64,000 bases of DNA from NCBI GenBank assembly GCA_031266805.1, contig JAISAH010000120.1, positions 1-64,000 of the forward strand, read 5' to 3'. Origin of the DNA: Gracilibacteraceae bacterium (GTDB lineage Bacteria; Bacillota; Desulfitobacteriia; Desulfitobacteriales; Syntrophobotulaceae). Position 1 is the first letter of the stretch. Each line of letters starts with the position of its first letter. Shown here in pieces: positions 2,792 through 14,528 of the stretch. Under the pieces are notes generated by a model. It saw only the letters and a list, made by a program, of their open reading frames with translations. It did no database searches and was not told where the DNA came from. The position numbers were made by a program, and so were the translations under genes.

Positions 2792-5700
2792 TCAAGGTTT
2801 CAGAATTCTGATGGATTTCGTCGCGATATTGCTGTCCGAGCCGAAACCTTTCACCGCGAACTGGATCGTCTTGTTAGCCGTGAGACTTATGTTATCGACA
2901 TAGATCTCAATCTCAGCCGGGTCGTCGGTCGGCCATCCCCATCCCATGAAGGTTACGAAATCCATGCCCGCCGCGTTGGTGAGTATGCGGCCTACCTCCT
3001 GCCGAATCGTTCCGGCCGCGTTCTCGTAATAGAGTGCTACATAACTATCCCAGCCCCACAAGCTTATGACTTCAGCCCGCAGTACGCCGTCGCCCATCGT
3101 CTTGTCCGTGATGATATTGTCGAAACTGAGCAGTTCATCCAAAGTGTAAACACCGCCGCCCATTTCGTCGATATCCTCATACGTGACTGCCGTAATCTTG
3201 GCGGTCGTGTTCACGACGTTGATGTTTTGTGACTTCGTCGTCACGCTTTCGCTGCCGGGCTGTTTGATTTTAGCCTGCAGTTGGACGGATCCGGTTCGGA
3301 AGTTTTGATACTCATCCGGAATTTCCACGCTCACATTGATGATATCACTGTTAACTCCGCTGAAGACGATAGGCATGTCAGAATAAGCAGATCCATCCGT
3401 CGGCTGCTGAATAAAGCCCACGCGATCTGTACTCAAAGTGAAAGCACCGTTTGGTCTTGCGGCGCCTACGGCCATAGTACCGGTATTCGTGTCATTCCAG
3501 ACGCCGTTGTACTCCGCCACGGTGAAAGCGCCGAGAGCGTAACCATTACCCGTGTACTTCATCAAGCGCAGATGGATCGTTCTTTTTGCTGTCTCGAATA
3601 CGTTTTGGTCTACAGTGAAGTCCAGTGCGTCTGGGTCGGCGGCCGTAAACCTGGATTGAGCCGGGTCAAGGGTTCCGGTGGGGCCGACGTCCAAGTTTAT
3701 TTTGCCGATTTCCTTAAAAGTAGCCGCGCCGTCAAATTCATAGGCGTAAAAACTGAGTGCTTCGGTCGCGGCAACCAAGTTGGCAGACTGGATCCTCAGC
3801 AGCAATTCGCCCTTGGCGTTCATTGCTTCCGCATCGACAGCCGCTACAGGCGTGGGAACACCACTGACCGTCTTTTCGACTTGGAAGGTATAATTATCTA
3901 CAGAACGGCCATTCTTGTCATAGAAAATTTGATTCCATTGCGCGAACGGATCGCCGTATTGATCCGTGAATTTAACGCTCGTGTAATCGTACCCGCCTCC
4001 CGCGGCCAGTTTCAAGGCGCTGTCCGCCAATACGGCGCGCGCGGCGACGCGACCGGTGTCGTCAGCCGGATCAAGCACGGTGATCGTGAAAGATTCGGTC
4101 ACGGCGCCGGAAACGATTGTGATCGTGGCTTTGCCTTCACCGACCGCGCTGAACCACTTCGAGTACGCTCTTGTCGCATACGAACCTAGGCTTGTCGAAG
4201 TTAAGATGACATTAGCATTGTCGTCATTGACATCCACCACAAATGGATTGGAGGTTCTGAGTTTTATATTATTTGTGATGTTCACATCTTTGCCGCCGGC
4301 GATCGTGTCGGCCGTGACATTCCAGAAACCGGCGGATTCACCAAGAATCAGCGTGTTGCTCTCAAGGCCCTGACCCAACACAGGTTGACCGTACTCAATC
4401 AGATCAAGACGGTAACCGGAGATGGCGCTGGCCGCCGTCGCGCGCCCGTCAATCAAAGTCACGTCCACAGGATCAGATTCATCGATGATTGCGGACTTTT
4501 TGCTGATGGTGATCGTATAGTCGAGCGTATCGTCACCGCCATTATAAACGTCCATAAGATCGCCTTGATCAAGTTCTCCGGTATCCGATTCGGAAGAACC
4601 GCCAAACACGTCAAAAGCAGCCGTAAACAGTACGTCATAGCCGGCGGCGTCCAAGTCGGAGACGGTGACGCGCTGATTGCCGCCGTTGATCTTAATGCCG
4701 AGAGACTGACCTTCAGCGCGAACGTCAAAGAAGTCCTCGACGCCCTGCACCGAGGTCACCGTGGTGATGGTCTGAGTCGGCGCCTGCGTGACGATCACAG
4801 CCGCGTGCCCTGTGGCTGTGCCTTTCGTGAGCGCGACTGTGTAAACACCCTCCGTATAGGAAACGGTGGCGGTCGCGCCGTTGGCGGTCATCGCGCTGAC
4901 CCGCTCTTGCAGCCAATTGGTTTTAGCCGTCTGGCTGCTTTGGGCGGAACGGGGGATATAATACACACCGGCCTCCAGCAGCGCCTTATCAGCTTCCAAA
5001 TTAAACCAATCGTGGGCAGTCAGATATTTTGATGTGACAACAGAGTTGCCAGACCTCACGATTTTAGCTTGCAATTGACTGTAATTTGTATAGGATGGAT
5101 CTATTTCCACAGTGATGATATCACCAACAATAACGGCGTCCGGTCCAATACGCGCGTCACTCGCCGTCAACGTAAACGCTTCTTGGAAACCAAAATTCAT
5201 TGAAAGGTCTTGATTCCATCCTTCGTATTCCAAATCGGTGAAGGCGCCCAACGCGTAACCGTTGCTCGTGTACTTCATCAGGCGCAGGTCAGCCAGATAT
5301 TTTGTCTCCGCCGCGTTGAGGGAAGGAGCGCCGGCGACGGGAACAAATTTAGACTGACTGGGGTCGATTGTTCCGGTTGAGCCGATATCCAGCCGTATGG
5401 CGGTTAGTTTCCGGAGCGCAGCAGAGCCATCAAATTTATGACCGTAGAAATTGAGATGCTCAGTCATTGTCCGCACATTGTCAGAGTAAACTTTTACCCA
5501 CAGTTCCCCTTTGGCGTTCACCGCCGCCATATCGGCAGTCGCTATAGGCATATAGGCGCCGCCGACCCTCTTTACAACAGTAAACGGACCTCCGTCTACA
5601 GAAGAACTGTAATCATCCTTGTCATAGAAAACCTGATCCCACCGGGCGAATGGGTCGCCATACTGGTCGGTAAAGCGGACTCTGATATAGTCATAACCGC

Positions 5701-8122
5701 CGTTTACCGCCACTTTCAGGCTGCTTCTCTCCGGCGCGGCGTGCGCGGCGACGCGTCCTGGGTCGTCAGCCGCACTCAGCACCGTGATCGTGAAAGATTC
5801 ACTCCGGTCGCCGTGAGTTATGGTGACAGTGGCTGTGCCGGCGCCGACCGCCTTAATCCATTTACCGTAGTTTCTGGCGCCTGTATTGATTGCAACAGCG
5901 TTATTGACCGTCACTACTGACGGATTAGATGTGCTGAGGGTCACAGCGCCCGTGACATTCGTCCCGCCCTCCAGGTTTATGATATCCCAGAGACCGGCGG
6001 TCTCGCCCAAGATCAGGATATTGCTCGTCATACCCTGACTCAGGACAGGCTGACTATCTTCTATCAGATCCAGCCGGTAGGAAAGCTCCTGTGGAGGCTT
6101 TTCCGCGTCGCGGACTGTGATCACCGCGCTGCCCGCCGCCGCGCCGTTGGTCAGCGCCACGCTATAGACGCGGTCGCTGTAGGAAACTTCGGCCACCGTG
6201 CCGTGGGCGATCCGTTTCACCAATTCGCTCTGCAGCCAGGCAATCCTTGTCTCCGGCGTCGTCTGCGCGGAACGAGGGATCACATATTCCTCGGACTCGA
6301 TCAGTATTTTATCCGCCGCCAGACTGTAAGTGGCCGCGTCCGTGTCGGAGCGCTCAATTGCGACATCCACTGTATCACCGTCCACGGTCGCCACTTGGAA
6401 AATACTGCTAATATCGCTCAGAAATTCCTCCGCGTCGATGTTCGGATATTTGGCGAGGAAGGCGGCGACGAACTCGTCGTTCAAGGTGAGAGTGATGGAA
6501 GGCGCCTCGTTTGCCGGCGTCTCCACTATGATCTCCTCGGTTTCGGCGTTAGCGGCCAAAGTTATTTTCGCCTCGTTGACGGTTTGCAGTGTGGTGACAG
6601 GAGCGTCAAGGATCACGTTGTCCTTCGTCTCCACGGTCAATTGATCAATGCGGGGGGCGTCCGCCGCGGCCGATACGGTGGAGACGCTTTGCAGCACGAC
6701 CTTCGGCACGGCGGAGTTTCGGCCGCCTATATGCAGGCGCGGCGCGGTATCGGGCGCGTTGACATAGACAGTGCCTTGAAAAGCCATATTGTGGAAATTA
6801 ATGGAATGAGAGCCGCCGCCGTTGATATGAGTTTCGCCGGTGACGGTCAGGCCGGCCAACCCCGCGCTGCCGTTACCGACGCCGCTGGCCACGGTCAAAG
6901 TCTCATATTCGGCCGCTTTCAGCGTCGTGACAGACGAAACGCCAAAAAATTCCGCCGCGGCCGCTTTGGTCGCGTCGTCCGCGCCCGCGCCGATCAAATA
7001 CGCGCCGTCGCGCGTGACAGTCAGCGCACCGTCCGCTTCAGTATATCTGGCGGGCGCTCTGAGACCGCTGCCACCGCCCGTGACCGGCGGAACGACCGCC
7101 GCCGCGCCGACCGCGGAAACCAGATTTTGCAAAACAGCGGCGGAAGTCACAGCCGCGCCGCCGAGACCGACCACGCGCGTAAAGGCTTTTCCGGCCAGAA
7201 ATGTCTTCGCCGCCTCGGAAAGCGCGCCGTTATCCGTCAGGAAGAGCGGCGCTCCGGCGATATAGGCCGCCGCGGTCAGCGCGTCCACCAGATGGTTGTT
7301 CGCACCGTTGGCCACAAACAAGCCCTTGCTGTAATCCCAGCTCTCCTCAAACTGTTTCAGCACCGCCAGATTCGTCTCATAGCGCGTCGCCCCGCCCAGA
7401 CGCACCGCCCCGCCCAGACGCACCGCCCCGGGCAGCGAGGCCAGAAGACCGGCGCTGATCACGCCCGTGCCGCCCACGGCGTAAACCGCGCTGACATTAT
7501 GGGCGCTGATAAAAGCGGCGGCTGAATCCGGCAGAGCTTCCGCGCCCGTGAGCAAGATGGGCCAGCCGCTTGCCGCCGCGACGGAGGCGATGGAGAGGGC
7601 GTCCGCGCTGCCGTAAGCTGTGACGACGACGACAGTGCTCACCGTCGTTCGCTTGGCTATTTCGGCGGCGATGTTTGCCGCCGTGGCGAAACGGTCAGCC
7701 CCGCCCAGAGGCAAGGTCGCGGCGCCCAGAGCCCGCGCGGCTTCCTGCACCGGCGGAGTGATCACGCCGTCGCCGCCGGCCAAGTAGATGTTTTTCGCGC
7801 CCAAACGCTGGATCTCAGCGGCGGTGGCCGGAGTCAGCCGTCCGCTTTCCGTCAGCAAAATCGGCGCGTTCAGGAGTTTCGCCAGCGGCGCCGCCGTTAA
7901 GGCGTCCACCAAATTGGCGTCCGCGCCCCCGGCTAAAATAACGTTTTCCGCCGCCGTCCAACCGGCCCGGGAAATGCTGACCGCCGTTTCATAGCGGTTA
8001 TCGCCGGCCAGCCGCTCCGTCCCCACTTCGGCGGCGCTCAAGGCCTGCATGGGCTGCAAGAACAGCAGGAGCAGGCAGAAAATGAGTACCGCGCATGTCT
8101 TTTTCGATTTCGATCGCCTCAT
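2792..8122 (-). CDS. Secreted S-layer-like protein with three CWB2 cell wall-binding repeats
   Basis: The 1776-aa product starts with a basic region and a hydrophobic core (residues 10-23), with probable signal-peptide cleavage near ALSA-A at 30. Residues about 36-335 hold three CWB2 (PF04122-type) repeats, each with an R-x-G/Y-E-T start, a DALTAAPLA-like segment and an LGG(A)xVI end. Such triplets anchor clostridial surface proteins to anionic wall polymers. The rest is beta-rich. Two copies of a roughly 380-aa block begin at YRLDLIE...QPVL and contain Big-like SNPxVVxVN strands, DQYGDPFAxW and LRLMKYTxNGYALGAF. Two copies of an YxIPRSAQ...WLQ segment are also present. A good Shine-Dalgarno (AAGGAGGG) lies 11 nt before the ATG. 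The 3' end is partly duplicated downstream. Confidence 0.9.
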   Translation of the reverse strand: MRRSKSKKTCAVLIFCLLLLFLQPMQALSAAEVGTERLAGDNRYETAVSISRAGWTAAENVILAGGADANLVDALTAAPLAKLLNAPILLTESGRLTPATAAEIQRLGAKNIYLAGGDGVITPPVQEAARALGAATLPLGGADRFATAANIAAEIAKRTTVSTVVVVTAYGSADALSIASVAAASGWPILLTGAEALPDSAAAFISAHNVSAVYAVGGTGVISAGLLASLPGAVRLGGAVRLGGATRYETNLAVLKQFEESWDYSKGLFVANGANNHLVDALTAAAYIAGAPLFLTDNGALSEAAKTFLAGKAFTRVVGLGGAAVTSAAVLQNLVSAVGAAAVVPPVTGGGSGLRAPARYTEADGALTVTRDGAYLIGAGADDATKAAAAEFFGVSSVTTLKAAEYETLTVASGVGNGSAGLAGLTVTGETHINGGGSHSINFHNMAFQGTVYVNAPDTAPRLHIGGRNSAVPKVVLQSVSTVSAAADAPRIDQLTVETKDNVILDAPVTTLQTVNEAKITLAANAETEEIIVETPANEAPSITLTLNDEFVAAFLAKYPNIDAEEFLSDISSIFQVATVDGDTVDVAIERSDTDAATYSLAADKILIESEEYVIPRSAQTTPETRIAWLQSELVKRIAHGTVAEVSYSDRVYSVALTNGAAAGSAVITVRDAEKPPQELSYRLDLIEDSQPVLSQGMTSNILILGETAGLWDIINLEGGTNVTGAVTLSTSNPSVVTVNNAVAINTGARNYGKWIKAVGAGTATVTITHGDRSESFTITVLSAADDPGRVAAHAAPERSSLKVAVNGGYDYIRVRFTDQYGDPFARWDQVFYDKDDYSSSVDGGPFTVVKRVGGAYMPIATADMAAVNAKGELWVKVYSDNVRTMTEHLNFYGHKFDGSAALRKLTAIRLDIGSTGTIDPSQSKFVPVAGAPSLNAAETKYLADLRLMKYTSNGYALGAFTDLEYEGWNQDLSMNFGFQEAFTLTASDARIGPDAVIVGDIITVEIDPSYTNYSQLQAKIVRSGNSVVTSKYLTAHDWFNLEADKALLEAGVYYIPRSAQSSQTAKTNWLQERVSAMTANGATATVSYTEGVYTVALTKGTATGHAAVIVTQAPTQTITTVTSVQGVEDFFDVRAEGQSLGIKINGGNQRVTVSDLDAAGYDVLFTAAFDVFGGSSESDTGELDQGDLMDVYNGGDDTLDYTITISKKSAIIDESDPVDVTLIDGRATAASAISGYRLDLIEYGQPVLGQGLESNTLILGESAGFWNVTADTIAGGKDVNITNNIKLRTSNPFVVDVNDDNANVILTSTSLGSYATRAYSKWFSAVGEGKATITIVSGAVTESFTITVLDPADDTGRVAARAVLADSALKLAAGGGYDYTSVKFTDQYGDPFAQWNQIFYDKNGRSVDNYTFQVEKTVSGVPTPVAAVDAEAMNAKGELLLRIQSANLVAATEALSFYAYEFDGAATFKEIGKINLDVGPTGTLDPAQSRFTAADPDALDFTVDQNVFETAKRTIHLRLMKYTGNGYALGAFTVAEYNGVWNDTNTGTMAVGAARPNGAFTLSTDRVGFIQQPTDGSAYSDMPIVFSGVNSDIINVSVEIPDEYQNFRTGSVQLQAKIKQPGSESVTTKSQNINVVNTTAKITAVTYEDIDEMGGGVYTLDELLSFDNIITDKTMGDGVLRAEVISLWGWDSYVALYYENAAGTIRQEVGRILTNAAGMDFVTFMGWGWPTDDPAEIEIYVDNISLTANKTIQFAVKGFGSDSNIATKSIRILKP
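7388..7423. repeat. 18-bp tandem duplication inside the CWB2 region
   Basis: The 18-bp unit CGCCCCGCCCAGACGCAC occurs twice head to tail. In the protein it adds one extra GAVRLG hexapeptide at the end of the second CWB2 repeat (GAVRLGGAVRLGGATRYET). It is in frame and so does not disrupt the gene. Confidence 0.85.
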
Positions 8123-8755: not shown

Positions 8756-10087
8756 TCAGTCTCCCAAAAGGCTGACGCTGCCGTCGTCCCCGCAAACGCT
8801 GACGACTCCCTGCGCGTCCACATAGACGCCGCTAAAACCATATTTTTCCAGCAAAACCTCGCTCTTTTCCCATCCTAAGATGAAGGTCACCGTGGATAAA
8901 ATATCCGCGTCCAGCGAGCGCGGGGCGATGATGGTGGACTGCCGGGCCGCTCCGGCCGGATAACCGGTGCGCGGGTCAAAAATGTGGTGATACCTGACGC
9001 CGTCCGCTTCAAAATAACGCTCATAATCTCCCGAACTGACTACCGCCTCGTCCGCGGCTTCCACCACGCCGATGATCTCGCCTTCCCGCCGGGGGTCGCG
9101 GATGCCCACGCGCCAGGGAGCGCCGTCCGGCTTGCTGCCGAGGGCGTACACATTGCCGCCGGCGTTGATCAGCGCGTGTTTTATACCGCGTTCTCTCAGC
9201 ACGTCCGCCGCCAAATCGGTGGCGTAACCTTTGGCGATGCCGCCCAGATCCAGCGACATGCTGGGTTCCATGAGCATGACGCTGCTCGCGCCCGGGTCAA
9301 AACTTATTTTCTCCGTCACCAAAAGCGGCAGCACCGCCTCTATTTCCGCCGTCGCCGGCGCCTCGACGCCGCCGGAACCGATCCCCCACAGATCGACCAG
9401 CGGCCCGATCCCGACCCGGAAGGTATCTTCAGAGTCTTCCGTGTAAGACAGGGCTTTGCTCAGCATGAGGCTGATATCCTCGCTTACCGTGACCGCCGCT
9501 TGACCGGCCGCGGCGTTGATCTTCTCCACCTCGCTCTCGCCCGCTCCCTGCTCGTTGCCGTAACGGGTGGCTAGGCGGTGCACTCGCTCAAACTCGGCAA
9601 ACGCGCCGTCCAGGGCCGCCCCCGCTTCCGCCTCCCCGGCGCTGTACACCGTGATGCTAATGATGGTGTCCAGCAAAAAACGCTGGTCGCTGAAGGCGAT
9701 AAGCGGCCCTGTTTTTTCTTCCGTGACGGAAATCACCACCTGTTGCGGCAAGCAGATGATAGGCTCGTAAACATGCTCCGCCCAGCCTTGTTTCATGCAG
9801 AGTTTGTCGGGGCATTGAGCGGAAAGCATCCGCACTTTGCCGTCACGCGCCTCCGCTACATATTCGCCGGCTGAACCGGTAAAACGGAGTTCCCCGTCCA
9901 AGGCGTCCAAATCGCCTTCATAGATAAGCTGTCCTTCCTGTTCGATGCGCAATACGCGGACAGACGGCTGAACCGGCGAGGCGCCGCTCGCGTCCCCGCC
10001 CCGTTCGCCGGCGGCCGAGCCGCAGCCGTTTATCAGCGAGAGGATCAGGGCGAAAATCAGGGCCGTTCTGGTTTTTCTCACCGCCAT
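8756..10087 (-). CDS. Lipoprotein fusion of NusG domain II and FAD:protein FMN transferase (ApbE)
   Basis: Residues 1-20 form a lipoprotein signal ending in LINGC, so the protein is probably anchored outside the membrane. Residues about 40-125 match NusG domain II, with the signature CPDKLCMKQGW and ICLPQQVVI. The rest is ApbE: LDTIISITVY, DLGGIAKGYATD, NAGGNVYALG and HHIFDPRTGYPA, the last contributing metal-binding residues. ApbE enzymes transfer FMN from FAD to threonines of target proteins. ATG at 10087 is chosen; GTG at 10096 is an alternative that overlaps the upstream gene. In many Firmicutes the two domains are separate neighbouring genes, so the fusion is notable. It ends the ECF operon. 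Confidence 0.9.
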   Translation of the reverse strand: MAVRKTRTALIFALILSLINGCGSAAGERGGDASGASPVQPSVRVLRIEQEGQLIYEGDLDALDGELRFTGSAGEYVAEARDGKVRMLSAQCPDKLCMKQGWAEHVYEPIICLPQQVVISVTEEKTGPLIAFSDQRFLLDTIISITVYSAGEAEAGAALDGAFAEFERVHRLATRYGNEQGAGESEVEKINAAAGQAAVTVSEDISLMLSKALSYTEDSEDTFRVGIGPLVDLWGIGSGGVEAPATAEIEAVLPLLVTEKISFDPGASSVMLMEPSMSLDLGGIAKGYATDLAADVLRERGIKHALINAGGNVYALGSKPDGAPWRVGIRDPRREGEIIGVVEAADEAVVSSGDYERYFEADGVRYHHIFDPRTGYPAGAARQSTIIAPRSLDADILSTVTFILGWEKSEVLLEKYGFSGVYVDAQGVVSVCGDDGSVSLLGD

Positions 10088-10614
10088 CCCCCCCACCGCC
10101 TGAGTTCAGGCAGCAGCGCCCGAACGCAGACGCCGATGATAAGGCCCGTGACGACGCCTGCCGCCGCCAGCGCCGGCAAATAGTAAAACACGCGCGCGCT
10201 GCCCAATATCAGCGCGGCCGTTCCCAATTGCCCCAGATTATGACAGACGGCGCCTATGACGCTGACGGCGGCCACCGGCAGACGGGGACAGGCGACGGCC
10301 AGCGGGTACATGACGGCGAAACTGAGCAGCGAGCCGGAGAGGCTGTACAGGAACACGGAAAAGGATCCGAAAATCCAGGCGGTCATCACGCATTTTAATA
10401 TGACCAAAGTCAGGGCCTGCCGGAATGACAACAGGTAAACGCCTGTCAAAATCACCAGATTGGCGAGACCGAGTTTTATGCCCGGCACGGTAAAACTCAG
10501 CGGAATAAAGCGTTCAAACCAGCTGAGCGCCGCGGCCAGGCAGACGAGCATGGCAATAAAGGCCAGCCCTCTGATTTTGAAATATTCGGGACTGTGGGTA
10601 TTATCATCACCCAT
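10078..10614 (-). CDS. Gx transporter family membrane protein (EetB-like, ECF S-component-like)
   Basis: The 178-aa product has five to six hydrophobic segments and the conserved run PGIKLGLANLVIL followed by FRQALTLVILK, typical of the Gx transporter family (often labelled heptaprenyl diphosphate synthase component I). Family knowledge links such proteins to ECF transporter S-components, and the Listeria extracellular-electron-transfer locus has an EetB of this kind. Here it sits between ecfT and the NusG_II-ApbE gene, overlapping the latter. Its likely role is membrane transport supporting flavin-dependent electron transfer. The exact substrate cannot be read from sequence. Confidence 0.8.
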   Translation of the reverse strand: MGDDNTHSPEYFKIRGLAFIAMLVCLAAALSWFERFIPLSFTVPGIKLGLANLVILTGVYLLSFRQALTLVILKCVMTAWIFGSFSVFLYSLSGSLLSFAVMYPLAVACPRLPVAAVSVIGAVCHNLGQLGTAALILGSARVFYYLPALAAAGVVTGLIIGVCVRALLPELRRWGGWR

Positions 10615-10652
10615 CGGTTGCGCGCACCTCCCGGTCGACGAGACTTGCTAAA

Positions 10653-11435
10653 TCAGGCGAAAAACATGAAAACCGTTGCGGCCAGCCCCAGGGCGAGCAG
10701 CAGAAAATCCGCCGCGCCCAGACGCAAAGGGTAAAGACCTGTGCGAGGGCCATCGCCGTAACAGCGGCTCATGAGCGCTACGCTCAAATGTTCCGCCCGT
10801 TCCGTCGCCCGGCGGAAAAGCGGTATGAAAAGCGTCGCCAGCGCCCGCGCTCTTTGCGGCGGCCCGCCTTCATCCCAGCGGGCGCCGCGGGAGATTTGCG
10901 CCTGCGTGATGCGCTCCGCTTCCTCAGTCATCAGCGGCAAAAACCGGAGAGCCAGAGCGAGCATAAGGGCGACGTCGCCGGGATCAAGCCCCAGGCGGCG
11001 CAGCGGCGCGAGCATGGCCGCCAGACCTTCCATAAGACGGATAGGCGTCGTGGTGTAAGTGAGTAAAGAAGAACCGGCGAGAAAAAATATGATCCGCGCC
11101 GCCCAAATCAGACCGGTGAGCAGCCCTTCCCGTGAAACACTCAGACTGCCCGCGCGCCATAAGGTTTGGCCGGGCAGCGTCAAGGCCGCGATGCCGATCA
11201 TGAACAGCAAAAAACCCGTAAAACCGCCGAGCCCGCGCAGCATTTTCCCCGGCGGCAATCCGGCCAGCGCCGCAAGGATGAGAGGCCAGGCCGCCAGCAC
11301 CGCGTAAGCGGCCGGTGTTCGCGCTCCGGTCAAAGCGATGAGATACAGCAGCGTCAATGTCACCTTGACGCGCGGGTCGAGACGGTGGATGAGGGAATTG
11401 CCGGGCAGGTACTGCCCCAACGTAATATTAAACAT
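10653..11435 (-). CDS. ecfT: Energy-coupling factor transporter transmembrane protein EcfT
   Basis: The protein starts at MFNITLGQYLPGNSLIHRLDPRVK, the usual EcfT N-terminus. The longer upstream reading overlaps the preceding ATPase gene and adds atypical sequence, so I chose 11435, four bases after the ecfA stop. Several membrane helices are followed by the cytoplasmic coupling region with SRGARWDEGG and, near the end, LMSRCYGDG, both resembling the conserved Ala-Arg-Gly coupling motifs. EcfT joins the two ATPases to an S-component. About 260 aa is normal length. Confidence 0.9.
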   Translation of the reverse strand: MFNITLGQYLPGNSLIHRLDPRVKVTLTLLYLIALTGARTPAAYAVLAAWPLILAALAGLPPGKMLRGLGGFTGFLLFMIGIAALTLPGQTLWRAGSLSVSREGLLTGLIWAARIIFFLAGSSLLTYTTTPIRLMEGLAAMLAPLRRLGLDPGDVALMLALALRFLPLMTEEAERITQAQISRGARWDEGGPPQRARALATLFIPLFRRATERAEHLSVALMSRCYGDGPRTGLYPLRLGAADFLLLALGLAATVFMFFA

Positions 11436-11439
11436 TTTT

Positions 11440-12288
11440 TCACAGTTCCTTATCGGGCGCAAATAAGGCGGAAAGATGCGCCGCCATTCCATCCACGGTC
11501 GGGATGTCCTGCCGGACCGGAACGCCCCGCGCGGCCAGCCCCTGAGCGAGCCGAGTCATGACCGGCGGCGGCAGCCCGGTCTCCGCTTGCAGGAGCGCTT
11601 GCGGCAAACGGCCTGTCAGGGCGGTTTTTTCCGTCCGTAATACCAGCAGACGCTCCGCCAGCGGCGCGGCTTCCTCTATATCATGAGTGACAATGATCAG
11701 CGCCCGCTCCGCTCCGTCCCGCCATTCCCGCAGCCGGACCAGCAAACGCCGGCTGGTCAAAGGATCCAGGCCGGCCAGCGGCTCGTCCAAAGCCAGCACG
11801 GAGGGACGCGCGGCGATGATCCCCGCCAGCGCCGCCCGCCGCTTTTCCCCGCCGGAAAGCGTCTGGGGAGACCGGGGCAAGACCTCCGGCGGCAAATCCG
11901 CCATCAGCCGAGCTTCCTCCACGCGCTCCGCCGTCTCCTCCTCGTTCAAGCCCTGGCGGCGCGGAGCGAACGCTATATCTTCCCCTACGGTAGGCGCGAA
12001 CAGCTGCTGTTCCGGGAATTGGAGCGCCAGACCCACTGCCGCGCGGGCGGCCCGCAAAGCTTTCTTATCCCGGTTTATATCCGCGCCCCGCAGCAGCACC
12101 CGGCCGGCGGTGGGACGCAGCAAGCCGTTCAGGTGGCGGAGCAAAGTCGATTTACCGGCGCCGGGTACGCCGGCGACCAGCCATGTTTCCCCGGCCCGGA
12201 TCTCCAGGTTCAGATCCCGCAGGGCCGGCGTGCCGTCGGGATAAACGTAACTCAGGTTTTCCAGACAAAGCAGCGTCTCAGAAGCCAT
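11440..12288 (-). CDS. ecfA2: Energy-coupling factor ABC ATPase (EcfA, second subunit)
   Basis: The 282-aa ABC ATPase has Walker A GVPGAGKST, Q-loop LQFPEQQLF, signature LSGGEKRRAALAG, Walker B VLALDEPLAGLD and switch histidine ITHD-type VTHD. The LQFPEQQLF form of the Q-loop is characteristic of ECF ATPases. It overlaps the preceding ATPase by 11 nt and is followed closely by ecfT, so the three form one translational unit. Which of the two ATPases corresponds to EcfA1 or EcfA2 is assigned only by gene order. Confidence 0.9.
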   Translation of the reverse strand: MASETLLCLENLSYVYPDGTPALRDLNLEIRAGETWLVAGVPGAGKSTLLRHLNGLLRPTAGRVLLRGADINRDKKALRAARAAVGLALQFPEQQLFAPTVGEDIAFAPRRQGLNEEETAERVEEARLMADLPPEVLPRSPQTLSGGEKRRAALAGIIAARPSVLALDEPLAGLDPLTSRRLLVRLREWRDGAERALIIVTHDIEEAAPLAERLLVLRTEKTALTGRLPQALLQAETGLPPPVMTRLAQGLAARGVPVRQDIPTVDGMAAHLSALFAPDKEL

Positions 12289-13132
12289 GATCTTCCTTGC
12301 GCTCCCGCCGCGCCCACAGCGCGGCCAGAGCGCCGGCGCAGGATTCAGGCGACAGCGCCGGCCGCTCAGGGGCTAGGCAGCCCGCCGCGGCCAGTTTTTG
12401 CAGCAATATGCCGCAGGGGGGCGGCAATATCCCGTAGCCGGCTATATCCGGGCGGCTCAGTATCTCCGCCGGGGCGCCGTCCAGGGCAATAGCCCCGCCG
12501 CGCAGCACTACCAGCCGCTCCGCCCGCAGAGCTTCTTCCGCGCGGTGAGTGCACCAGAACACCGTCAGGTTTTTCCGCCGCCGCAGCGCGCAAACCATAT
12601 CCAGTATTTCGTCCCGGCCAGCCGGATCCAGCATGGCGGTGGCTTCGTCCAGCACTAAGGCCTTCGGTCTCAGCGCCAGAGCGCCGGCCAGAGCCAGTTT
12701 TTGTTTTTGCCCGCCAGAAAGCCGCCCGACGTCTTTGAAGCGCAGAGATTCCAGCCCCGTCAATCGCAGCGCCTCATCCGTTCTCTCCCGCACCTCGGTC
12801 GCGGGGAGTCCCAGATTGCCGGGCCCGAAAGCCACGTCTTCCTCCACGGTCGTAGCGACGATCTGGTCGTCCGGGTTTTGGCTGACCAGACTCACCCGGC
12901 GCCGGATCAGCGCTCTGTTTTCCGCCGCCGCGGTCGACAGGCCGTCGATGAGTATTTCGCCCGCCTGCGGCAGCAGTATCGCGTTCAGCAATTTCGCCCA
13001 GGTGGACTTGCCGGAGGCGCTCGCGCCCATGAGCGCCGTGAAACTGCCGGCCGGAGCGCTGAAAGTCAGGCCGCGCAAAGCCGGCGGCCTGTCGGCGCCA
13101 TATGAAAAAACCACGTCATTCAGCGCAAACAT
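12278..13132 (-). CDS. ecfA1: Energy-coupling factor ABC ATPase (EcfA, first subunit)
   Basis: The 284-aa ABC ATPase has Walker A GASASGKST, Q-loop VSQNPDDQIVA, signature LSGGQKQKLALAG, Walker B ALVLDEATAMLD and the switch region WCTHRAEEA. The residues NPDDQ in the Q-loop are typical of the first ECF ATPase. It is the first gene of the operon ecfA1-ecfA2-ecfT-Gx-ApbE. No classic S-component such as RibU is adjacent, which leaves the Gx protein or a distant S-component as partner. Confidence 0.9.
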   Translation of the reverse strand: MFALNDVVFSYGADRPPALRGLTFSAPAGSFTALMGASASGKSTWAKLLNAILLPQAGEILIDGLSTAAAENRALIRRRVSLVSQNPDDQIVATTVEEDVAFGPGNLGLPATEVRERTDEALRLTGLESLRFKDVGRLSGGQKQKLALAGALALRPKALVLDEATAMLDPAGRDEILDMVCALRRRKNLTVFWCTHRAEEALRAERLVVLRGGAIALDGAPAEILSRPDIAGYGILPPPCGILLQKLAAAGCLAPERPALSPESCAGALAALWARRERKEDHGF

Positions 13133-13176: not shown

Positions 13177-13225
13177 CACTTGATTCTACCATTCCGCCCG
13201 CCGTTTGTCAACAAGTTTAATCATA

Positions 13226-14425
13226 TTACCGCAGCAGCCAGTCTATCAAATTAACATGTTTTATGCCTTCGTGATCCCCGGTAATGGAATCAAGCGTCAA
13301 AAGGTATTTAGGGTAATTGTCGCCGACCTTCATGAGCGGGGCGAGTTCACGTTCTTTGACCGCCTCGTCGAGGACGGACATAGATACCTGATAATATTCT
13401 TTTTTGTTTTGCCGCGCCGCAACGAAATCGATCTCCCGCTCATCAAGCTTGCCGATGTTTACACGATAGCCGCGGCGGAGCAATTCCAAGTACACAATGT
13501 TCTCGATCTGATGACCGACATCGGAATTTGACGAGGAAAGCAAATGATTGCGCAAGCCTGTATCCACGATATAGTACTTGCCGAGAGTTTTGAGAAGGTT
13601 TTTCCCTCTGATATTATACCGCTCCACGCTGTAAAATAAAAAACTGTCAGCCAGAGCTTTGACATATTTATCAACCGTTTTTTGCGTGATTTTCCTGCCG
13701 GAGTTATTGATATAGCCTGTGATATTGGCGGTTGAAACAGTGCTGCCTGCATTGCCGCAAAGATATTTAACTATATTTTTCAGCAGCCCGACGTCGCTCA
13801 CTCCCTTACGGGCGACAACGTCTTTAACGATGATGGTGCTGTAAATGCCCTCCAGATATTGGTCGAAAAGTCCCGTGTCGCCGCCGAGCTGTGTAACGAC
13901 AACGGGAAAACCGCCCATGTTCAGATAATCCATAAACGCCTGGTTTTTATCTTTATTTTCGCCGGCGGCGTAAAACTCCGCAAATGAAAACGGCAGCAGC
14001 TTGATCTCTACATAACGGCCCGAAAGCAAAGTGGCGATCTCCCCCGACAGCAAATCGGCATTGGAGCCGGTTATATAAACATCCGTGTTTTTCTTGATAT
14101 ATATGCTGTCGACCGCTTTTTCAAACTCCGCGCACCGCCCCGCCTCATCAATGAAGATGTAGGTCGTCTTCTCTTTTTGCAGTTTGGAGAGCAAAAATTC
14201 GTGCAGGGCTTTGTAGTTATGCAAAGCCTCCATAGCCACGTCTTCCAGGTTGATATGGACGATTTGGCTTTCATCGACGCCTTGAGTTTTCAGGTATTCG
14301 ATATACAAGTCGAATAAGGTCGACTTGCCGCAGCGCCTCACGCCTGTTACGACCTTGATCACATCGACATCGCGGAATTTGATCAGGTTTGCCAAAAAAC
14401 GCGGGCGCGGAATCAGTTTGTCCAT
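13226..14425 (-). CDS. AAA-family ATPase with DUF4143 domain
   Basis: The product has an N-terminal AAA_14-type P-loop (GVRRCGKSTLF, about residues 30-41), Walker B FIDEAGRC, and a sensor segment YITGSNADLLSGEIAT. The C-terminal DUF4143 region includes KTLGKYYIVDTGLRN and LDEREIDFVAARQNK, which resembles a PD-(D/E)XK-like fold. ATG at 14425 has a strong GGAGGTGG site, so it is preferred over the GTG three codons upstream. Proteins of this kind are common as single genes in anaerobes and of unknown role. It stands alone, with AT-richer flanks than its neighbours. Confidence 0.85.
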   Translation of the reverse strand: MDKLIPRPRFLANLIKFRDVDVIKVVTGVRRCGKSTLFDLYIEYLKTQGVDESQIVHINLEDVAMEALHNYKALHEFLLSKLQKEKTTYIFIDEAGRCAEFEKAVDSIYIKKNTDVYITGSNADLLSGEIATLLSGRYVEIKLLPFSFAEFYAAGENKDKNQAFMDYLNMGGFPVVVTQLGGDTGLFDQYLEGIYSTIIVKDVVARKGVSDVGLLKNIVKYLCGNAGSTVSTANITGYINNSGRKITQKTVDKYVKALADSFLFYSVERYNIRGKNLLKTLGKYYIVDTGLRNHLLSSSNSDVGHQIENIVYLELLRRGYRVNIGKLDEREIDFVAARQNKKEYYQVSMSVLDEAVKERELAPLMKVGDNYPKYLLTLDSITGDHEGIKHVNLIDWLLR

Positions 14426-14528
14426 TAAAACCACCTCCCTCTTAGACAGGATAACAGAAAGTCCAGAAAAAATAAAGTTATTTTCCGCACGGAAAATAAC
14501 TTCGTTAAAATGTTTAGAGACGCCCCTC

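Follow-up and report, generated by a model that had tools for sequence, protein, structure and literature searches.

A probable FAD-export and flavinylation operon with EetA fused to an ApbE-type transferase in a Gracilibacteraceae bacterium

In Listeria monocytogenes, the energy-coupling factor (ECF) transporter EetB-FmnA-EcfAA′ exports flavin adenine dinucleotide (FAD) for an ApbE-type transferase: The text of PMC9973259 reports that export of the flavins used in flavinylation of the lipoprotein PplA requires both EetB and FmnA and that EetB binds FAD in a pull-down. The same text counts eetB next to eetA in 3,328 genomes and next to apbE in 2,169, describes EetA-EetB fusions in 14 genomes as well as fusions of EetB with ECF-T and ECF-A, and leaves to later study how cofactors are delivered to ApbE in a targeted way. 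EetA, which accompanies eetB in thousands of genomes, is without a known function. Here, we analyzed a 64,000-nucleotide stretch of a Gracilibacteraceae bacterium (GCA_031266805.1, contig JAISAH010000120.1, positions 1 to 64,000; hereafter, the window) from a draft genome of 152 contigs that is 95% complete, in which five minus-strand genes between 13132 and 8756 hold all parts of such an exporter and encode EetA and ApbE as one protein. An earlier note on this DNA had taken the locus for one resembling extracellular electron transfer (EET) systems and had left the published FAD-export function of EetB unused. We consider it probable that the operon is instead a self-contained module for FAD export and protein flavinylation, and not a vitamin importer.

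The five genes run head to tail in the order ecfA, ecfA′, ecfT, eetB, and eetA-apbE, with the fused gene last, and all gave Pfam matches above the cut-off, in agreement with the parts that the earlier note had named. The first two genes (12278 to 13132 and 11440 to 12288) encode ECF-type ATPases that both scored best against ECF ATPase models, the first with 265.3 bits to ECF_ATPase_1 (its best NCBIfam model, below the equivalog cut-off of 315) and the second with 243.6 bits to ECF_ATPase_2 (below the cut-off of 330); the first carries GASASGKST, LSGGQ, and VLDEAT, which we take to be its Walker A, signature, and Walker B motifs. They are followed by a CbiQ/EcfT-family transmembrane coupling subunit (10653 to 11492; PF02361, 143.9 bits), which would play the part of FmnA, by the ECF-S-like EetB with its six helices (10078 to 10614; PF07456, Hpre_diP_synt_I/EetB, 131.7 bits), and by a lipoprotein-like protein of 446 amino acids (aa) that contains both NusG_II, the Pfam domain of EetA, and ApbE in a single open reading frame (ORF; 8756 to 10096). 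The fused gene overlaps eetB by 19 bases, and overlaps ranging from a few bases to some tens exist between the two ATPase genes and between the second ATPase gene and ecfT. In a genome-wide profile search, the window held the sole PF07456 gene and the sole NusG_II domain of the genome.

The fused protein opens with a signal-like region (10022 to 10096, minus strand, as for all operon features) that ends in a candidate lipidated cysteine, Cys25. Although the Asn in its box, INGC, is atypical, a lipoprotein reading is reasonable, because the corresponding boxes of genus mates are LLSAC (L024) and FSGC (L128). The NusG_II/EetA domain follows (residues 47 to 127; 9716 to 9958; PF07009, 75.2 bits), with the pattern Cys95-x4-Cys100...Cys115-x-Pro, the three cysteines of which were kept in 38 of 39 NusG_II segments, the one exception ending at a contig end. 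A short link then leads to the ApbE flavin mononucleotide (FMN) transferase domain (residues 142 to 419; 8840 to 9673; PF02424, 272.6 bits). In a model of the whole protein (pLDDT 86.6, pTM 0.75; linker 24 to 39 of low confidence), the ApbE part had Listeria FmnB (7esa) as its nearest solved structure (Foldseek E 1.3e-32, TMt 0.88), while the NusG_II part matched the DUF1312 structures 4esn, 3ld7, and 4obi (TMt 0.71 to 0.79, with 0.79 for 4esn). The text of PMC8906456 names for FmnB a triad, Asp301-Ser257-His273, and six further catalytic, FAD, or Mg residues. Upon sequence alignment, all nine of the residues checked (FmnB D184, K190, N216, S257, E261, R262, H273, D301, and S304) were identical in the window ApbE, namely D283, K289, N315, S355, E359, R360, H371, D398, and S401, with the numbering counted along the alignment. 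Unfused EetA proteins open, as read by eye, with a hydrophobic membrane helix that is absent from the fusion. The domain is thus EetA-like, but the protein as a whole differs from a plain EetA, because NusG_II follows a lipoprotein-like signal instead of its own membrane helix and sits between that signal and ApbE. For the fold, we used alignment A4, in which nine rows have their final NusG_II residues out of place; alignments A1, which mixed the separate domains badly, and A5, which was worse than A4 at the NusG_II start, were set aside.

In its predicted model (pLDDT 91.5), EetB is folded like the ECF-S subunits. The best structural match was TmRibU (Z 15.1, rmsd 2.9 over 163 residues), the best 20 VIA-align rows were all ECF S or substrate-binding subunits with TmRibU first, and further S subunits appeared down to Z 11.3, with unrelated membrane proteins at 9.6 or below. 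Foldseek also put these proteins at the top, though with E values of at least 0.03, and searching solved structures with the EetB sequence returned noise only. By analogy with its Listeria counterpart, the window transporter would carry FAD, and carry it outward.

Taken together, these parts suggest the following mechanism. As in the Listeria exporter, EcfA, EcfA′, and EcfT with EetB as the S subunit would carry cytosolic FAD across the membrane. At its outer face, the lipid-anchored EetA-ApbE would split the FAD and attach FMN to exported FMN_bind proteins, at the Ser or Thr of their [S/T]GA[S/T] sites. These two steps very probably follow from the parts present, with activity and client use as predictions. 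The NusG_II/EetA domain would act as a docking adaptor that keeps the transferase beside the exporter, such that FAD is handed over and not lost. We put this docking role forward tentatively; it is suggested because the eetA-eetB-apbE synteny, the EetB-EetA fusions, and the EetA-ApbE fusion all link exporter, EetA, and ApbE. EetA is found fused to either neighbor in the proposed chain, since, besides EetA-ApbE, we found two EetB-NusG_II single-chain proteins, possibly among the published 14 (L057:6902-8032 and L125:2114-3283, both on the plus strand). Both of these lie beside Rnf and ApbE genes, and ecfT and two ecfA genes are found close to the first as well. We agree with the earlier note in reading the fusion as a tie between NusG_II and FMN transfer, and add docking as our own conjecture on its nature. 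A broader version, which is conceivable but which we hold with yet more reserve, casts EetA as the hand-over subunit of ECF-type FAD export, where FAD would pass from EetB to ApbE unreleased and where adaptor and transferase would form one lipoprotein in this genus. If true, this would account for the presence of eetA with eetB in so many genomes and for the finding that free extracellular flavin stayed unchanged upon loss of eetB in Listeria.

Surveying the fused architecture, a check that the earlier note had suggested, showed how rare it is. The same operon with the same fusion occurs in an independent assembly of the same genus, isolate Nc350_bin127 (L024, the same as L127 and G018:C2; one contig of 63,631 bases), at 70 to 74% protein identity to the window, and a third genome (G019) contains the operon with a lipoprotein-like start and NusG_II, after which the contig ends. 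Among 25 genomes of the family, 15 contain NusG_II, with 21 matches; long NusG_II frames were seen only in the window genome (G000, 449 aa), in G018 (580 aa), and in the cut G019 (220 aa), while the other 18 matches lie in frames of 27 to 161 aa. Of 398 genomes sampled across the phylum, 235 have NusG_II and 266 match a profile built from the two fused proteins (A2); among the matches listed for this profile (to about E 1e-60), none but that of the window extends over both domains. We also compared 80 loci, the best 80 of 531 relatives picked by similarity to the fused protein and hence not a random sample: NusG_II occurs in 28, EetB in 34, and both in 25, with one fusion as in the window (L024) and one EetB-NusG_II (L057). 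In 24 of the 80 loci, a NusG_II ORF lies on the strand of apbE and no more than 1.2 kilobases (kb) away from it; apbE comes first in 23 of these, and the NusG_II-apbE order of the fusion occurs only in L078. Within what was searched, the fused architecture thus appears confined to this genus.

Several candidates for a wider distribution were rejected. Full-length matches (43-445, 5-408, and 51-434) proved to span apbE and a separate eetA gene, leaving L024 as the only fused one; a 324-aa frame in G313, long and overlapping, contains no domain but NusG_II, and a 390-aa frame in G357 is EetB-NusG_II. Separately, ApbE occurs in frames of 523 to 612 aa with N-terminal extensions, which could hold other fused domains, in G357 (L125:452-2110, plus strand), G321, G199, and G144. 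In an ApbE tree, the window and L024 group at 100/100, apart from the ApbE of other genera of the family (L130, L132, L135, and L136); the next neighbors are those of Rnf-type Pelotomaculum and relatives, in a weak grouping (91/84). Term searches in the texts of PMC9973259, PMC8238504, PMC11334425, and PMC12052999 turned up no EetA-ApbE fusion, although their supplementary tables may list one, and a literature search found no paper joining ApbE, NusG, and flavinylation with "extracellular electron transfer," or "NusG domain II" with ApbE. Other ApbE fusions are described, with DUF2271 in the text of PMC8238504 and with fumarate reductase in trypanosomatids in that of PMC12052999.

This narrow distribution feeds the strongest alternative, namely that the fusion entails no functional coupling and that NusG_II, with an original role unrelated to ApbE, is a passenger or a spacer lifting the transferase toward wall proteins. 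It sits between the putative lipid anchor and the catalytic domain, where a spacer would be expected, and the text of PMC9973259 reports no EET phenotype for an eetA deletion in Listeria. However, the domain keeps its three cysteines and its fold, and the eetA-eetB-apbE synteny, including the 24 loci with NusG_II close to apbE, is very widespread, which a mere spacer would not explain. We regard this alternative as rather unlikely.

The exported targets that the proposed module would serve were sought in the window genome, where FMN_bind is found as 10 domains in eight ORFs. Seven of the eight look exported and carry SGAT or TGAT sites, which removes the worry, raised in the earlier note, that an extracytoplasmic target might not exist. 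On contigs C81 and C113, membrane proteins with FMN_bind, two Fer4_5 domains, two CX3CP motifs, and an SGAT site resemble RdhC, and each forms an rdhA-rdhC pair (L018:1284-4414 on C81 and L019:5024-8855 on C113) with an adjoining rdhA that matched TIGR02486 with 190.7 and 254.4 bits, respectively, at a cut-off of 160.35; a search with the alternative RdhA family PF13486 gave no match, but no control genome matched it either. Contig C108 encodes a PplA-like protein in a 144-aa frame with a lipoprotein-like start, one FMN_bind domain, and a TGATIS site, which is conserved in G017 and G018, the G018 copy having no [S/T]GA[S/T] site by pattern. Four giant proteins of ~1,700 to 2,000 aa (C140, C38, C93, and C102) show signal-like starts, FMN_bind, and SGAT or TGAT sites; three of them (C140, C38, and C102) carry CWB2, and the fourth, cut by a contig end, has two FMN_bind domains and NEAT. 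The eighth ORF, on C151, combines two FMN_bind domains with FAD_binding_2 in a flavocytochrome-c-like protein with no signal seen, apparently cytosolic, and forms a pair (L014:4745-8799) with the signal-less ApbE beside it. The genome thus appears to keep two flavinylation systems apart, one internal and one external, the latter being the window operon. As judged from domains and motifs, its likely clients are the two RdhC proteins, the PplA-like lipoprotein, and the giant wall-binding proteins.

NEAT (heme/iron) domains and FIVAR accompany a pair of FMN_bind domains in giant surface proteins, one in the window genome (G000:C93:1-5065; L016:2-5065, minus strand) and one in a genus mate (G018:C191; L158:2-7165, minus strand), the latter additionally with CWB2. 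While multi-flavinylated wall proteins are already known from the text of PMC8238504, a literature search found no paper combining "NEAT domain," "FMN-binding," and "flavinylated."

A narrower alternative holds that the module serves organohalide respiration alone by maturing RdhC, with the surface proteins incidental. The rdhA-rdhC pairs occur in four of the five genus genomes searched, with two pairs each in G018 and G019 and one in G016 besides those of the window genome, and the text of PMC5928378 reports covalent FMN on the RdhC homologue PceC. Yet the same genome encodes four giant surface-type proteins and a lipoprotein with SGAT or TGAT sites, and one extracytosolic ApbE would have to serve all of them, so that we find this restriction rather unlikely. 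Reductive dehalogenase respiration may, as an aside, be a trait of the genus.

The label of the earlier note, "EET-like," implies a Listeria-type pathway, where NADH would feed electrons via Ndh2 and demethylmenaquinone (DMK) to flavinylated lipoproteins and on to ferric iron. EetA, EetB, an FmnB-like ApbE, the ECF module, and exported FMN acceptors are indeed present, including NEAT-bearing surface proteins, one in the window genome and one in a genus mate. The note had remarked that PplA and Ndh2 lie outside the window, and it had suggested looking for both in the genome: A PplA-like protein turned up on C108, with a single FMN_bind domain where Listeria PplA has two, but Ndh2 did not, the best match to the Ndh2-like protein of L032 having 29% identity at E 7e-4 in a genome whose 95% completeness would allow for a missed gene. 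Such an Ndh2-like gene adjoins apbE-eetA-eetB in loci such as L032, L035, and L045. An Rnf/Nqr core was likewise not found in the window genome (RnfD family PF03116, 0 matches, whereas four control genomes matched). The part of the label that refers to the export and flavinylation components stands, whereas the respiratory part is not supported, and we judge a Listeria-type EET pathway improbable.

A plain ECF importer for a vitamin or cobalt beside an unrelated apbE, which the earlier note had named as a reading that would overturn its own, is very improbable. EcfT is annotated as CbiQ-like and the ATPases as cobalt/ECF types, but the cobalt-specific CbiQ model TIGR02454 scored EcfT at 91.1, below its cut-off of 111.8, the S subunit is PF07456/EetB and not CbiM, the Listeria PF07456 homologue binds FAD and is needed for export (PMC9973259, as given in its text), and the transferase gene overlaps eetB within the same operon. 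Last, an assembly or frameshift artefact, which a 152-contig draft might raise, has practically no probability left, refuted as it is by the recurrence of the fusion in L024/L127 at 70 to 74% protein identity, with the cut third genome consistent.

Some observations weigh against the export-and-flavinylation proposal itself. The unchanged EET activity of the Listeria eetA deletion would mean that an adaptor role is either not general or not essential. At a pTM of 0.75, the relative placing of NusG_II and ApbE is only tentative, and the lipobox of the window protein itself is the atypical one. All client genes lie on other contigs and none in the operon, and in G016 and G017 (86 to 88% complete), FMN_bind proteins were found but no NusG_II or ApbE; these genomes may be incomplete or may have lost the module. 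For this organism, the proposal draws on sequence, structural models, and the Listeria analogy. With these points counted in, a self-contained FAD-export and flavinylation module is still the explanation that we favor overall.

In the surroundings of the operon, a strong promoter-like site closely precedes ecfA1 (13183 to 13211, minus strand; TTGACA-17-TAGAAT with TG ahead of the -10 element), which matches the consensus in 11 of 12 positions and is identified by this match only. Beyond it lies an AAA_14/DUF4143 gene (13226-14434). Downstream, the window encodes a 1776-aa protein (2792-8122, minus strand) with three N-terminal CWB2 repeats and without FMN_bind, the CWB2 part of which is related to that of the FMN-bearing giant proteins. 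In L024, this gene does not adjoin the operon, which is followed instead by ORFs that resemble UvrD and LigA as judged by N-terminal sequence only.

The fusion of EetA to ApbE, beside those of EetB to EetA, suggests for EetA a concrete, testable role in coupling FAD export to protein flavinylation, and the compact operon, with every ECF part and the transferase, makes a convenient unit to reconstitute. Its likely clients connect the module with RdhC subunits and large flavoproteins of the surface, and not with the ferric pathway of Listeria.

Compared with Listeria EetB-FmnA-EcfA-EcfA′ and FmnB (as laid out in the text of PMC9973259), the locus likewise encodes an ECF-S-like EetB, an ECF-T, a pair of ATPases, EetA, and an ApbE-type FMN transferase, here probably extracytosolic. 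In Listeria, however, EetA and FmnB are two proteins, flavin import draws on the same ATPases, and the EET system includes the Ndh2, PplA, and DMK genes. Here, a single protein unites EetA with ApbE, one operon contains the transferase along with all four ECF parts, and no Ndh2 was found in the genome. The unfused loci of Desulfotruncus arcticus DSM 17038 (L055) and of G007 from the same family (L135) hold the same domain set within ~5 kb, but with separate apbE and eetA genes, apbE first, and with the ecf genes and eetB in other orders or strands. The EetA-EetB single chains (the 14 genomes of PMC9973259; L057 and L125) likewise join EetA to a neighbor in the flavin-export chain, which in their case is the exporter S subunit and not the transferase. 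As in RdhA-RdhC (PceA-PceC) organohalide respiration, the window genome has rdhA beside an rdhC with FMN_bind, two CX3CP motifs, and SGAT, but on other contigs, as proposed clients and not as operon members. Overall, the locus represents a known kind of system, an ECF-type FAD exporter with ApbE, in a new and apparently genus-restricted arrangement.

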